Shown: piece after piece, positions 5,184 to 17,805 of the stretch
Layout of the letters: the number at the start of each line of letters is the position of its first letter
How positions within the stretch are numbered: the first letter of the stretch is position 1
Virus record (IMG/VR): IMGVR_UViG_3300036859_000551
Coordinates: 1-25,366 of that record
Strand: one strand, 5' to 3'
Source: a virus
DNA length: 25,366 nucleotides
Translations under genes and position numbers: made by a program
The notes under the pieces: model-generated
What the model was told of the DNA's origin: nothing
Database searches by the model: none
Seen by the model: only the letters and a program-made list of their open reading frames with translations

Positions 5184-6416
5184 CTAGACGGCGTTGGCAA
5201 CTGCCACGGCCCACTCCGGCCGCACCCACAGATATCCGTACAGCACGTCCAGCCTCGTAACCATCTGGTCCGTCTGCACGTTGTAGTCCGTAATCATGCG
5301 CATCGAGATGCCGTCGAACGACTCCCTCGCGGCCTCGTGGACACCCCGGGGCATTTCGAGGTCGGCGGTGGCCATCGTGACCGCCTCCGGCGCGTAGGCG
5401 ATGTTCTTTCGGTACACTGCTGCCGGCAAGGTCACGACATCGACATCTGATCCGTTCGGCGGGCTCTGGTCCACCGTCTGATACTGCACCTGAACGCCTC
5501 CCACTGCCGGGATGAGCGCCGGATAGATCGGAATGCTCGTCCCCCCCGACGCCACCGCCGCCGTCACGACGAACTGTCGCCGCGTCCCCAGCGTCTGCTT
5601 CGTAATGCGGTTGACCGCATTCACGTCCTCGATCGTGATGATGTCCCCCTGGTTGAGCCCCCCGGTGATCGCACTGGTCGTCAGCGAGAGCCCAGTCTGC
5701 CCCGCCCCAGAGATGGTCGCCGCGGTGTTCGTCCCACTGATAACCGTATACGTTGCTGTCGTGTGCTTGATGATAGTCTGGTCGCTGTACCAGTCAAAGC
5801 GCAGACTATCCCGGGCCATCATCCCGGTGCGGTACTGCTCGCTGACCTTCGGCGCCGGGTTGAAGAGCCCCGCGAGCGAGCCCACCGTATCGGCCATGCT
5901 ATTGGGGTCGAGGATCGCGCACCAGTTGTTCATCGGCACGCTGTTGTTGTCCAGCGTCGCCCCCGCGTTGAGCCACGTGGTCTGCGTGGGCGCGATCACG
6001 GCCCCCGCGTTGAGGTTCGCGACGAAATTGCACACACCCCCTTCCACGCCACTCATCACGTCCACGGCCACGGCGCCCGCGAGAGTGTTCACCATGGGTG
6101 CCAGGATGCGCCGCGAGTAGTCGTCCAAGGACATGGTCCTGTCCGCGGTCGAAAAGCTCACATCCACGCCTTTCTGCGTGGCAAGCACGAGCGAGGTGCT
6201 CTGCTCCGCCGTGTCCTGGACCGACGCCGCCGGCCCCGTCCGCGGGGTGAAGTCGTTCGGCAAGCGGATGCGGAGGGCTGTCCCGATCTTCGCCCCAGTC
6301 TTGGCGAAGCTATCGTCATACTGCATGTCCACGTTCCGCAGGAACGCGTTGCTGTTCTTCCACAGCCGCACGGCCTCCCGGGTAATCATATTGATCGTCA
6401 GAAGAGAGTTGGCCAT
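5184..6416 (-). CDS. Major capsid (coat) protein, P22 gp5-like (410 aa)
   Basis: The N-terminal pattern (LLTINMITREAVRLWKNSNA, then YDDSFAKTGAKIGTALRIRL) followed by SVQDTAEQSTSLVLATQKG and RTMSLDDYSRRILAPMVN matches the P22 coat family, which adopts the HK97 fold. Length 410 is close to the 430 of P22 gp5. Residues 190-330 hold a beta-rich insertion-like stretch (TIKHTTATYTVISG, NQGDIITIEDVNAVN). The start codon follows GGAGG five bases upstream, which is buried in a long inverted repeat. The scaffold gene lies upstream and a structured spacer lies on each side. A second gene at 13647-14063 carries a fragment of this protein in rearranged order. Confidence 0.95.
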   Translation of the reverse strand: MANSLLTINMITREAVRLWKNSNAFLRNVDMQYDDSFAKTGAKIGTALRIRLPNDFTPRTGPAASVQDTAEQSTSLVLATQKGVDVSFSTADRTMSLDDYSRRILAPMVNTLAGAVAVDVMSGVEGGVCNFVANLNAGAVIAPTQTTWLNAGATLDNNSVPMNNWCAILDPNSMADTVGSLAGLFNPAPKVSEQYRTGMMARDSLRFDWYSDQTIIKHTTATYTVISGTNTAATISGAGQTGLSLTTSAITGGLNQGDIITIEDVNAVNRITKQTLGTRRQFVVTAAVASGGTSIPIYPALIPAVGGVQVQYQTVDQSPPNGSDVDVVTLPAAVYRKNIAYAPEAVTMATADLEMPRGVHEAARESFDGISMRMITDYNVQTDQMVTRLDVLYGYLWVRPEWAVAVANAV

Positions 6417-12129: not shown

Positions 12130-13650
12130 TCACTTCAGCCACCCAGTCGAAGTCGCGTTGCCCCCGCCACGCAGGCTAAGCCCGCGCAAGCGCCCGAGCA
12201 CGCCCACCCGCTCCCCCGGCTCGGGCAGCTTCAGCCGAAACTCGGTCTTCCTTCCCATCTGGCTCGCGACTGCGAAGTACCGGAAGGCATCCCCGATATC
12301 GCTGTGCTCCGGGGTCTTCCCCAGCTGCTTCGTCGTCGGGTCGATATCATACACGTACTCTCGCAGCCCCTTCACTCCCTCCGCCGTGCGCGCCCGGTCG
12401 AAGTAGCAGTTCGGGAAGATCGTTCTCGCGGCGTTGATACCATCAAGCACGGATAGCTTGGGCACAAGCCTGCAGCGGTCCTTGTAGCCCTTCGCCTTAA
12501 CCTGCTCCTCCACCGACATCTTACTCCCAATCGTCTTCGCCGCTGCGTCGTGCGGGAGCCACAGCGTATCGTACACATAGCCCCTCCGCTGCAGCACCTC
12601 CAGATAGTGATCGATGTGCTTGCGATTGGCCTTGTAAAAGTCGATGAGCCTGTAGTCCCACGACACTTGCTGCACAAACCACATCACCGTGTAGTCGCTG
12701 CGCCCGATATCGAAGTACACACTAACTGGCAGGTGCCTCAGCGGCTCCACCTCGCATATCCTGCCCTGCTCCTGGGCCTCCCGCAGCTCATCCGCGTAGA
12801 CCGCTCCATCGAGGTTGACCAGGCACTCCCCTTCCCAGATATGATTATAGAGGTCCAGACTGCGCCTCTTATCCGCTTCCATATCCGCCCGCAGCATCTC
12901 CATCGGGAAGTACGGATTGTCCCTCCACGTGACCTTCTGCACAATCGCGTTCTCGGGCGGAGATACGACGAAGCGCTGGTGGGTATCGCCACTTTCCAGT
13001 TCGGGGTTATACATAATCCAGAACTCTGGCCCCATCTTCAGCGGCCCATGCGGGGGCTTGGTCCGGATAGTGGGCGTGAGCACGCGCCAACTGGCCTCAC
13101 TTATCGGCTCGGCCTCCTCGGCGAGCACCAGGTCATCGCCCTCATGCGACTTGACCTTGTTGTGATTCCGCCTCAGGCCCTCGAAGGCGAACTCCGTCCC
13201 CTGCGCAGTCGTCCCTTTCCTGCCCCGAATGATATCGTCCAGCACCTCGTAGTGATCCCCCAGGCTAAGCAGCTGCATTTGGTCCGCCAGGGTCTTCTTG
13301 ACAGAGTCCCGGAGGCTATCCTGAATCTCTCTCACGCACAACACCCGCAGGCCGTCGTGCGACCGCCCATCCCCCATCTTCAACTGCCCCGCCGGGCCAC
13401 CACCCATCCCAATGACGAGCGAGGCTCGCGCGGCGCTCCAGGACTTTGCGCCGCCTCTGCCGCCGTATAGGACCTTATACCTGGCCTGCTGCACATCCCT
13501 CGCATCCACCCCCGCCGCGAGTGCTTCCTCCCGCGTCCAGTACCCCTGCCGCCTCGCGCAGAACGGCTGAAACAGCACCTGCATCTTCGGCGGAAACGCC
13601 GCATTGACCACGACAGGCGAGGGGGCGAGGAGCGAGGCCGCGAGCGTCAT
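12130..13650 (-). CDS. Terminase large subunit (506 aa)
   Basis: ATPase domain: Walker A YGGRGGAKSW at residues 62-71, Walker B LVLAEEAE at 174-181 and the coupling motif MYNP near 213. Nuclease domain: FDIGRSDYT with Asp near 314, LPHDAAAK near 366-372 and SDIGDAFRY near the end, the three acidic sites of the RNase H-like terminase nuclease. This is the motor that cuts and packages phage DNA. About 30 residues (CARRQGYWTREEALAAGVDA onward) before Walker A look inserted compared with the terminases I remember. The start overlaps the Tat/coat-fragment gene by 4 nt (ATGA). The putative small subunit lies about 4 kb upstream. Confidence 0.95.
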   Translation of the reverse strand: MTLAASLLAPSPVVVNAAFPPKMQVLFQPFCARRQGYWTREEALAAGVDARDVQQARYKVLYGGRGGAKSWSAARASLVIGMGGGPAGQLKMGDGRSHDGLRVLCVREIQDSLRDSVKKTLADQMQLLSLGDHYEVLDDIIRGRKGTTAQGTEFAFEGLRRNHNKVKSHEGDDLVLAEEAEPISEASWRVLTPTIRTKPPHGPLKMGPEFWIMYNPELESGDTHQRFVVSPPENAIVQKVTWRDNPYFPMEMLRADMEADKRRSLDLYNHIWEGECLVNLDGAVYADELREAQEQGRICEVEPLRHLPVSVYFDIGRSDYTVMWFVQQVSWDYRLIDFYKANRKHIDHYLEVLQRRGYVYDTLWLPHDAAAKTIGSKMSVEEQVKAKGYKDRCRLVPKLSVLDGINAARTIFPNCYFDRARTAEGVKGLREYVYDIDPTTKQLGKTPEHSDIGDAFRYFAVASQMGRKTEFRLKLPEPGERVGVLGRLRGLSLRGGGNATSTGWLK

Positions 13651-14063
13651 TGCTGCCCCCGATAGCCCGAGGGGAGCCGAACCCGCAAAGTCGCTCCTGG
13701 TCGAAATGGCAAGTCAAAAGCATTCGGCTCGTTCTCGAGAGACTGAAGAAACGCATTGCTGTTCTTAAACAGCCTCACTGCCTCTCTCGTGATCAGGTCA
13801 ATCGTAAGTAGTCGGTTGTTGACCGTCGGCGCAAGAACACGCTCGGCATATTCGTCGAGCGTCATAAAATCCGGGGCCAGCGCCTTCACCGGCATCAACG
13901 ACGCCACCCGCACAATCGCCGGGGCAGCCAGGATCGCGCCAAGGCCAGCCAAAAACCCGCGTCGAGATGGTACTTCTAACATCGGCCTATGGCCCACTTT
14001 CGTATTTCCGAACATGGGCCTATCGGCCCAATTTCGTCCCGGAGGGGAGAAGCCCCACTTCAT
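13647..14063 (-). CDS. Tat-signal protein fused to transposed coat-protein fragments (138 aa)
   Basis: I favour the ATG at 14063, preceded by GGAGGGGAGGGG. A GTG at 14111 and an ATG at 13982 are in-frame alternatives; the latter would put the Tat motif right at the N-terminus. In the 138-residue form, SRRGFL lies at 33-38, followed by a hydrophobic core (AGLGAILAAPAIVRVASLMP), a classic twin-arginine signal. Then come MTLDEYAERVLAPTVN (67-82), matching coat residues 95-110, and LLTIDLITREAVRLFKNSNA with AFL (85-107), matching coat residues 5-26, then ATLRVRLPSGY, matching coat 46-56. The two coat segments are in reverse order relative to coat. By hand, the DNA of one segment is about 73% identical to coat (52 of 71). 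It is coupled to large terminase by ATGA. Function unknown. Confidence 0.7.
   Translation of the reverse strand: MKWGFSPPGRNWADRPMFGNTKVGHRPMLEVPSRRGFLAGLGAILAAPAIVRVASLMPVKALAPDFMTLDEYAERVLAPTVNNRLLTIDLITREAVRLFKNSNAFLQSLENEPNAFDLPFRPGATLRVRLPSGYRGQQ
13980..14036. repeat. Imperfect direct repeat with palindromic core
   Basis: Two near-identical units, 13980-14002 and 14013-14036, each contain GGCCTAT(C)GGCCCA followed by TTTCG. Both lie in the 5' part of the Tat/coat-fragment gene or in its leader, depending on the start used. Read in frame they give WADRPM and VGHRPM. A related perfect palindrome lies at 23646-23659. Confidence 0.6.
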
Positions 14064-14076
14064 CCCCTCCCCTCCG
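14040..14076 (-). promoter_or_regulatory. Hairpin covering the Tat/coat-fragment ribosome binding site
   Basis: Arms CGGAGGGGA (mRNA sense, complement of 14068-14076) and TCCCCTCCG (complement of 14040-14048) pair perfectly across a 19-nt loop that contains the ATG at 14063. The Shine-Dalgarno sequence is therefore in the stem, and initiation at 14063 would need the hairpin to open. Confidence 0.45.
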
Positions 14077-14121
14077 AGACAGGCAGCCCATTGTGACTGC
14101 CTAATACTCACGGTCTTGGGG

Positions 14122-16060: not shown

Positions 16061-16315
16061 TCACTTCTCCTTCTGCCTGGGGCTGTCCACGCACATCACA
16101 GGATGCCAGCTGAACTCATACGCGGGCTTCCCGTCCGGCGTAGACTGCCCTTCCACCCGCCACACGTTCGTCAGCACCATCTTCATCCGAAACTCCACGC
16201 CATCCGCAAACACGTATCGAGAAAAGGGCTCCTGCGCCGCGACGAACTCCACCGGCGTGCGCACCGCCGCGCCGTACTGCGGATTCGGCCCGCTCGCTGG
16301 CACACTCGCACTCAT
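16061..16315 (-). CDS. Small phage protein, beta-rich (84 aa)
   Basis: It overlaps the lysozyme stop by 4 nt (ATGA). The central region (FSRYVFADGVEFRMKMVLTN, VWRVEGQSTPDGKPAYEFSW) has alternating hydrophobic and polar residues typical of a small beta-sheet protein. I remember similar short proteins with 'FADG.efRmK.v.t.v.Rv.g..~~~G.P.Y.f' in phage genomes. Possibly a minor structural component. Function unknown. Confidence 0.65.
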   Translation of the reverse strand: MSASVPASGPNPQYGAAVRTPVEFVAAQEPFSRYVFADGVEFRMKMVLTNVWRVEGQSTPDGKPAYEFSWHPVMCVDSPRQKEK

Positions 16316-17190
16316 GGGTCTATCCCCGCGCGCTTCCTCGCGTCGTCCAGCGCCTTGACCGTCTGCGCTCCCACCACCCCGTCGATGTCGAGCCGCTCCC
16401 GGGTCTGGAAGACCAGCACCGCCTGTCGAGTCCTGGGGCCGTAGACCCCATCGACGACGAGCGGCGGCTCAGCGCCAAGCAAGTTCAGGCTTTCCTGCAC
16501 CCACTTCGCCCCGGTAGACGGGCTGTGCGGCGTCTGCGGCACCCCCACCGCATCCGCTACCCACTCCTTCTGCAGCGCTACCCGATCCCCCGGATAGTGG
16601 TTCATATCAATTCCCGGGTGCCCCGGGATAGAGATGCCATCGACAGCGTGCGGCGCCGGCCCAAGCCCATCCCCGCTGTACTGCCACAGCCAGGGCTCTT
16701 GCCAGCTCCGCTGTACGACCGGCCTGCTGCTGTACTGCGCGAGCCATAACCTGTGCCCGCCGAAAAAGCTGTCCGCCCGACTGCCCAGCAGTTCCTTGGC
16801 CGTGTTCCCGCTGTAGATGATCGGCCTCCTACCCACTGCCTTCGCCACCCCCACTAGCCACTCTTCCGCCGCATCCACGCTCACACGGTTGTCCTCCCAG
16901 TCGAGGGCCATCAAGTCCCCGCTCTTCGGCTGCGCATACGCAAGATACCACTCCACCTGCTGCGCGATCCCCCCTTGTCGGATGAAGTGATACGTGCCCC
17001 ACAAGAGGCCTGCCGCGAGCACCTGCCCCCGCCGCTCTGCCATGGGCTTGTCCACAATCGTGCGCCCCTCTGTCGCCTTATGCACCACCCCCCAAATGCC
17101 TGCCGCCGCGGCCCGGCGAAAGCCATCCCGCTCCACCGCATTATAGTGCGAGATATCCACCACCCGTGGACTAATGCTTATCCCTGCCAC
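16312..17190 (-). CDS. Endolysin: GH25 lysozyme with peptidoglycan-binding domain (292 aa)
   Basis: Residues 9-215 form a GH25 muramidase: VVDISHYN (Asp12) at the first strand, HKATEG near 37-42, GTYHFI near 65-70 and the catalytic MALDWEDN with Asp97 and Glu99. Later strands are RRPIIYSGN, LWLAQY and LWQYSGDG, with GIDMNHYPGD closing the barrel. Residues about 225-285 are a PG_binding_1 domain (WVQESLNLLG, VDGVYGPRTRQAVLVFQTRE, DGVVGAQTVKAL). It cleaves the glycan strands of peptidoglycan for host lysis or entry. No signal peptide or SAR anchor is visible, so a holin would be needed. The start overlaps the Tat beta-helix-like gene by 13 nt. Confidence 0.92.
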   Translation of the reverse strand: MAGISISPRVVDISHYNAVERDGFRRAAAAGIWGVVHKATEGRTIVDKPMAERRGQVLAAGLLWGTYHFIRQGGIAQQVEWYLAYAQPKSGDLMALDWEDNRVSVDAAEEWLVGVAKAVGRRPIIYSGNTAKELLGSRADSFFGGHRLWLAQYSSRPVVQRSWQEPWLWQYSGDGLGPAPHAVDGISIPGHPGIDMNHYPGDRVALQKEWVADAVGVPQTPHSPSTGAKWVQESLNLLGAEPPLVVDGVYGPRTRQAVLVFQTRERLDIDGVVGAQTVKALDDARKRAGIDP

Positions 17191-17648
17191 ATCGACCTCC
17201 GTTGCTTCGCCCGACCGTACTCGGCAAGAAAGAGCGTCCTGCCCTTCCGCCCCACGTAGTGTACCTCTCCCGCCACGCCCGCAAACGTGGCTCGATGCCT
17301 CTTCTCCACGCTGAAGACCGGCAACTCGAGGTCCAGGTCACTCACCTCCAGTACAATCCGCTCCACGCGAATGCGCGCATCCTCCGGAACAGTGATTGTA
17401 TTGGTAACTCGATACACTCCTCGGTGGAAGACCACACCCCGGTAGCCCTCCGCCCCGCACGCATCAGTCTCGAACACGAGGGGCTCCCCGTGCATCAGAG
17501 CCGACAGGCCCCCCGTATCATCGTGCTTCCCATCCCCGACGATCGAGGGCAGATTGCCCAGTCCCGCGCCCTCCACCGGGAACGTCGTTGCCCCGATGAG
17601 GGAGATCATCCCGCCCAAGAAGCCCCTTCGTGATAGACTAACTGCCAC
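17178..17648 (-). CDS. Tat-signal protein with beta-helix-like stub (156 aa)
   Basis: I chose GTG at 17648, eight bases after AGGAG and overlapping the previous stop by 11 nt. It gives a near-ideal twin-arginine signal at once: VAVSLSRRGFLGGMISLIGA ending near VEGAG. A start further upstream (17759) would bury this in an Arg-rich stretch. The mature part begins LPSIVGDGKHDDTGGLSALM, the 'GDG..DDT.al' hallmark of pectate-lyase-3-like beta-helices and phage tailspikes, then YRGVVFHRGVYRVTNTITVP, one more helix-like rung. It stops after about 110 mature residues, so only a stub of a beta-helix is present. It precedes the lysozyme. An exported cell-envelope role is possible; catalytic activity is doubtful. 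Confidence 0.7.
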   Translation of the reverse strand: MAVSLSRRGFLGGMISLIGATTFPVEGAGLGNLPSIVGDGKHDDTGGLSALMHGEPLVFETDACGAEGYRGVVFHRGVYRVTNTITVPEDARIRVERIVLEVSDLDLELPVFSVEKRHRATFAGVAGEVHYVGRKGRTLFLAEYGRAKQRRSMWQG

Positions 17649-17805
17649 TTTCCGTCTCCTCGAAGAGCATCGAGCCAATCGCCCGATCAACCTGCCTGGC
17701 CCTCGCCACTGCCTCATGTATCCCATAGGGCACACCTGCCTTGGCCCTGCCCCGCGCAACAGCGCGCGCTACTCGGGCGACCCAGTACTCCCGCGGACTA
17801 GCCAT
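17638..17805 (-). CDS. Small helical phage protein (55 aa)
   Basis: The ATG at 17805 overlaps the stop of the terminase small subunit candidate by 8 nt. The product (MASPREYWVARVARAVARGR, then AKAGVPYGIHEAVARARQVD, then GSMLFEE) is Arg/Ala-rich and helical. A longer in-frame start at 17853 lies within the upstream gene and is less likely. Function unknown. Confidence 0.6.
   Translation of the reverse strand: MASPREYWVARVARAVARGRAKAGVPYGIHEAVARARQVDRAIGSMLFEETESGS

Follow-up and report, generated by a model that had tools for sequence, protein, structure and literature searches.

Why would a phage encode a small protein in which an export-type signal is joined to out-of-order pieces of the phage's own major capsid protein? 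This question was raised by a gene located in the 25,366-nucleotide stretch of DNA that we analyzed as a whole (the window, corresponding to positions 1 to 25,366 of IMG/VR virus record IMGVR_UViG_3300036859_000551). A sequence-only reading had proposed that this gene encodes a twin-arginine (Tat) signal followed by coat protein segments in swapped order, that it is an old or horizontally acquired copy rather than a recent duplication and that it is coupled to the large terminase gene. The product was suggested to be a decoy interfering with assembly of related phages, a remnant with a reused export signal or an envelope protein. We found that the observation itself is real, whereas its interpretation was supported in part only: the Tat signal, the coat segments in swapped order, an old and not recent copy and the coupling to terminase are supported. 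The features of the window used in the analysis are the following:

13647..14063, minus strand: fusion gene of a Tat-type signal and coat fragments, 138 aa, ATG start at 14063, TGA stop
14064..14075, minus strand: Shine-Dalgarno stretch GGAGGGGAGGGG before the ATG
13908..13967, minus strand: twin-arginine signal SRRGFLAGLGAILAAPAIVR (residues 33-52)
13884..13907, minus strand: motif VASLMPVK following the signal (residues 53-60), family consensus x-x-S-[LI]-M-P-V-K
13818..13865, minus strand: coat-like segment 1, MTLDEYAERVLAPTVN, equivalent to coat residues 95-110 (start of the spine helix, by analogy with the HK97 fold)
13734..13811, minus strand: coat-like segment 2, LLTIDLITREAVRLFKNSNAFLQSLE, equivalent to coat residues 5-30 (N-arm)
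13662..13697, minus strand: coat-like segment 3, GATLRVRLPSGY, equivalent to coat residues 45-56
12130..13650, minus strand: terminase large subunit (TerL; Terminase_3 PF04466, E 3e-21), whose start overlaps the stop of the fusion gene
5184..6416, minus strand: the phage's own major capsid (coat) protein, P22 class, source type of the segments
6087..6134, minus strand: coat residues 95-110, counterpart of segment 1
6327..6404, minus strand: coat residues 5-30, counterpart of segment 2
6249..6284, minus strand: coat residues 45-56, counterpart of segment 3

The reading frame is open at 13647-14111 on the minus strand and its best start is the ATG at 14063, preceded by GGAGG at 14075-14071 with a 7 nt spacing, while the stop codon overlaps the TerL start as ATGA. 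Residues 33-52 of the 138-aa product display the twin-arginine motif, a moderately hydrophobic stretch and an AxA-like cleavage site, and the arginines and APAIVR align across 73 relatives. The profile models of Tat signals align at this position but score just under their curated cut-offs (TIGR01409, 13.9 versus 16.7 bits; PF10518, 14.3 versus 22.7 bits), and Tat-dependent export was not assayed. Alphaproteobacterial Tat signals of the APAIVRA type share with this one the RRxFL motif, the hydrophobic stretch and the APA/VRA end, but here the signal is followed by a near-invariant S-[LI]-M-P-V-K motif and the cargo consists of virion protein pieces. No PHROG, Pfam or NCBIfam family covers the protein, the sub-threshold Tat signal being the only match.

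The coat protein of the window is a P22-type major capsid protein (PF11651, 6e-33; phrog_283 major head protein, 1e-59). Aligning the fusion protein with this coat showed that residues 67-82 match coat 95-110 (62% aa identity, 62% nt), residues 85-110 match coat 5-30 (73% aa, 69% nt) and residues 123-134 match coat 45-56 (50% aa, 44% nt), with third codon position identities of 31%, 42% and 8%, respectively. The sequence-only reading had given about 73% as the DNA identity of one piece; this value is the amino acid identity of the N-arm piece, whose DNA identity is 69%. Neither of the two local scores was reached in 5,000 shuffles (58 versus a maximum of 37; 115 versus a maximum of 52) and a tblastn comparison to the coat gave E=5e-12 with 48% identity. 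With a profile of the P22 class, segment 1 aligned at model positions 113-129 (E 1e-3) and segments 2 and 3 together at 19-75 (E 4e-14). The protein is not a coat, since only residues 5-30, 45-56 and 95-110 are present, in changed order and without the complete capsid fold (N-arm, E-loop, spine, P and A domains, I-domain), but it is derived from or related to one. Third codon positions near chance alongside conserved amino acids argue against a pseudogene or a recent duplication of the phage's own coat. Three outcomes announced beforehand as fatal to the observation, namely coat similarity no better than chance, homologues lacking both pieces, or a frameshift, were each examined and none applies to the close homologues; more distant members of the family carry other pieces.

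In order to determine whether this design is restricted to the window, we searched 2.9 million viral contigs of IMG/VR with a DNA pattern for APAIVR-xxx-[LF]MPV. This yielded 75 stretches, each encoding a small protein (mostly 80-160 aa) with the same signal and a different tail, although a few are cut by contig ends or are near-identical pairs. A second scan, whose pattern stopped at APAIVR[VA], gave 73 such ORFs, 39 of them new, for a total of 115 distinct ORFs sharing one conserved module (RRxFLxGL..APAIVRx-x-S-[LI]-M-P-V-K) followed by unrelated tails. Among the 73 ORFs, which were not selected for it, [LI]-M follows the signal at a fixed distance in 73 of 73 and is preceded by S or N in 71 of 73. 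Third codon positions are variable in this block whereas first and second positions are nearly fixed, indicating that conservation operates at the protein level. The S-[LI]-M-P-V-K motif is nearly as conserved as the signal itself, which a plain export signal would not need. We considered that its invariant Met could be an internal translation start, but Shine-Dalgarno strength before it is no higher than in synonymous shuffles (1.49 versus 1.69) and this possibility was rejected. A subfamily (L211, L226, L240 and L255; L numbers designate the stretches recovered in the scans and G numbers the carrying records) displays DSLMKLHHIPERWATVWGVG after the signal and a longer, shared, non-capsid tail, and the tails of L035, L070 and L252 share a Cys/His-rich stretch (GVPRCxxCxxxxGMCxHTGGP) of unknown origin.

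To identify the origin of the tails without presupposing it, we collected most of the carrying contigs, clustered their genes into 84 protein families, and scanned 86 tails, 600 control small genes and 430 shuffled tails against all of these families. Twenty tails produced hits at E<0.01, compared to 3 control genes and no shuffled tail, which rules out a generic habit of small phage genes. Every hit fell into one of four families, all major capsid proteins: representatives of three are named major head protein in PHROGs (phrog_212, 9953, 334) and the fourth is the P22 coat class of the window, phrog_283. Further own-contig proteins matched by tails in pairwise or profile searches are also major head proteins (phrog_9953, 138, 1357), and the capsid of another record in the set matched by one tail is phrog_3437. 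Portal and terminase families, although present in as many contigs, were not hit. Among all six-frame ORFs of 76 contigs, significant capsid-profile hits outside capsid genes occur only in Tat ORFs and in one ORF directly beside two of them.

The capsid pieces are moreover of the phage's own class. In contigs whose capsid could be typed, all 26 tails that could be assigned fall in the class of their own phage (six classes), and 25 of 41 tails match their own capsid protein at Z>4, against 2 of 246 comparisons to other classes (Mann-Whitney p=4e-11). For the window, Z is 22 to its own coat, with a mean of 0.1 and a maximum of 1.5 to other classes. Independently, PF11651 occurs in 10 of 67 searched records, and all but one of these (G006) carry P22-type tails. 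Within a class the own capsid ranks high but is not always first (mean normalised rank 0.21, simulated p<5e-5), so that the pieces follow their phage but are not recent copies. A coincidental similarity or a misassembly artefact had no evidence in its favor and is refuted by the shuffle and control-gene tests, by the second scan made without the LMPV requirement, and by a BLAST search against isolate phages in which a Tat tail hits capsid regions.

With profiles of seven capsid classes, 38 of the 115 tails show capsid segments at E<0.01. About half of the segments originate from the N-arm, a quarter from the spine-helix region, and the rest from the I-domain, A-domain or C-terminus (regions named by analogy with the HK97 fold). 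In contrast to P22-like and other HK97-fold major capsid proteins, only 20-60 residues are present, reordered and behind an export signal. Four of the five tails with two recognizable segments are in swapped order: the window and L026 (P22 class, spine then N-arm, the first segment of L026 being weak, E 0.07), L245 (phrog_9953 class, spine then N-arm) and L047 (C-terminus then spine); by eye L058 is also swapped. Swapped order is thus a recurrent feature across unrelated capsids. Phages with several of these genes carry different pieces in them: L047 has an N-arm, a C-terminus plus spine, and a C-terminus piece, and L012 has two pieces. In L004 (9358-10342; G034:20073-21326, minus strand) three consecutive genes carry the coat I-domain (no signal), the spine helix (Tat) and the N-arm (Tat), in the reverse of their order in the coat. 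About two thirds of tails have no detectable source, and a few derive from other virion proteins: two (L006, L007) carry a tail collar domain (PF07484, best E 1e-13), one a head-tail adaptor match and one a weak portal match. The window itself contains a second Tat-like ORF at 17178-17759 on the minus strand (SLSRRGFLGGMISLIGATTF), with a tail that by eye resembles the start of a tailspike domain (GDGKHDDTGGLSALM...HRGVYRVTNTITVP); it overlaps the start of the lysozyme-like ORF 16312-17190 and has no family match.

The predominance of N-arm and spine helix, which are subunit-contact elements of HK97-fold capsids, raises the possibility of superinfection interference, in which the fragments would act as dominant-negative capsid pieces against related phages in the same cell, the Tat signal keeping them away from the producer's own assembly or clearing them in time. 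Own-type matching means that close relatives, the likeliest co-infectors, would be hit. Capsid-derived restriction exists elsewhere, as with Fv1 and enJSRV Gag (PMC6361761), which are likewise partial capsid-derived proteins kept as separate genes, but those are host genes in animals with no export signal, whereas here the gene is in the virus and carries one. A prophage protein also blocks assembly of other phages (PMC10884400), although there is no evidence that it is a capsid fragment or Tat-targeted. However, export would remove the inhibitor from the cytoplasm where capsids assemble, and the producer's own coat, being of the same type, would also be affected. We regard this explanation as unlikely.

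Several lines of evidence indicate that these are real genes, probably under selection. Of 80 Tat ORFs, 27 overlap the next gene by exactly 4 nt, the next most frequent offset having five, and four loci have coupled tandem pairs. Alignable tail pairs show dN well below dS (window versus L044: 0.51 versus 2.33), although pairs were chosen for alignability and one close pair with indels (L245/L247) shows dN about 0.7 of dS. Members L186 (Bradyrhizobium erythrophlei GAS478) and L181 (Rhizobium MAG), found in bacterial genome records, are homologous with tails 54% identical (dS 0.92, dN 0.40); their neighbourhood was not examined. A non-adaptive origin, in which a mobile Tat-signal reading-frame start would repeatedly fuse to debris of the most expressed gene to give inert products, could account for the diversity of the tails, the two thirds without known source and the L245/L247 pair. 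It is nevertheless improbable, since only own-type capsid pieces read in the sense frame were found, third positions are near saturation while amino acids are kept, the genes show translational coupling and tandem copies with different pieces, the design recurs over at least six capsid families, and the [LI]-M motif is invariant. The remnant with a reused export signal put forward by the sequence-only reading is therefore not supported.

Gene neighbourhoods suggested another scenario, a membrane tether, in which the signal would dock at the inner membrane while the coat segment co-assembles with capsids, bringing assembly or packaging to the membrane. The adaptor architecture is compatible with this view, and several genes lie next to packaging or head genes: TerL in the window, a TerS-like gene in G011, a gp4-like gene in G027 (the G011 and G027 neighbours being named by eye) and the coat in G012. 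Other members, however, lie in different regions or on the opposite strand from the coat (16 of 41), the choice of capsid region varies and collar pieces do not fit, making this scenario doubtful.

Only six stretches were found in 84,980 species genomes, in Rhizobium, Methylocapsa, Hyphomicrobiales, Bradyrhizobium, another alphaproteobacterial MAG and one Marinimicrobia MAG, and 8 of 37 phage records have a tyrosine integrase match. We infer that the carriers are mostly virulent phages, most probably of soil alphaproteobacteria, and lysogenic immunity is disfavored as the main role, with the reservation that records may be incomplete. Isolate phage genomes gave no member at the sensitivity used: whole members hit only capsid regions there, and tblastn of the signal alone returned nothing, possibly because of low-complexity filtering. 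The family may consequently have stayed invisible to culture-based work. Literature searches for Tat-signal plus capsid proteins in phages found no description of such a fusion in the open-access papers covered, which leave out most subscription journals, and no such protein family is described in the databases and papers searched.

What the analysis demonstrates is a two-module gene family with signs of translation: a constant Tat-type signal ending APAIVR and followed by x-x-S-[LI]-M-P-V-K, conserved at the protein level, and a second module differing from phage to phage, which in about a third of members is recognizably one or two short, often swapped, segments of the carrier's own type of major capsid protein. 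Delivery to the host Tat translocase, binding to coat partners and their removal or tethering are inferences. They rest on the reasoning that a constant part implies a common host partner and an own-capsid part implies a target recognizing that capsid; a shared module plus a phage-specific module is what an adaptor between a common host partner and the phage's own capsid would look like. Our preferred, though tentative, explanation is that the protein is a Tat-targeted capsid mimic. Its second module would imitate contact elements of the coat and bind whatever binds the coat (a coat-sensing defence protein, or the coat or scaffold of a co-infecting relative), which would then be carried to the membrane or periplasm as a Tat hitchhiker, out of the way of the phage's own capsid assembly. 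In this view each phage would need its own capsid type as bait, and the shared signal would work for all because they share hosts. Tat co-exports partners that lack signals (PMC4273604) and can pass unstructured segments of 100-120 aa, though a hydrophobic stretch can stop export (PMC6708511), and capsid proteins are direct triggers of bacterial immunity, as with CapRel (PMC9712102). The T4 Lit protein likewise recognizes the capsid Gol peptide. In these defences a piece or the whole of a capsid protein is the recognized molecule, while here the phage itself supplies separate capsid pieces with an export signal, and no link to a sensor has been shown. It is to be noted that export, binding and phenotype were not measured and that no partner protein was identified. 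The AlphaFold2 model of the window protein was uninformative (pLDDT 57.5, with helices at the signal, the spine piece and the N-arm piece), so that the protein may not fold and Tat may reject it. The use of different capsid regions by different phages also fits several functions. The idea of an exported, permuted coat fragment is strengthened by the recurrence of the design in unrelated phages, while the earlier decoy and envelope proposals are not decided by sequence.

We consider it about as likely as not that unrelated phages independently build an exported or membrane-targeted mimic of their own capsid protein on one shared Tat-signal platform, several per genome with different capsid pieces, as a dedicated anti-immunity or inter-phage competition system, which would be a kind of phage gene not described before. 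One export-signal module is shared by phages with otherwise unrelated heads and, where a source could be recognized, is mostly fused to pieces of the carrier's own type of capsid, which implies a common host-side partner and a selective need to present capsid pieces at or beyond the inner membrane. The family points to an unknown way of handling, decoying or exporting capsid pieces during infection. It would give a new handle on how phages deal with capsid-sensing immunity or with rival phages, and a sequence rule (signal + S-[LI]-M + capsid segment) by which unannotated small phage genes can be sorted.
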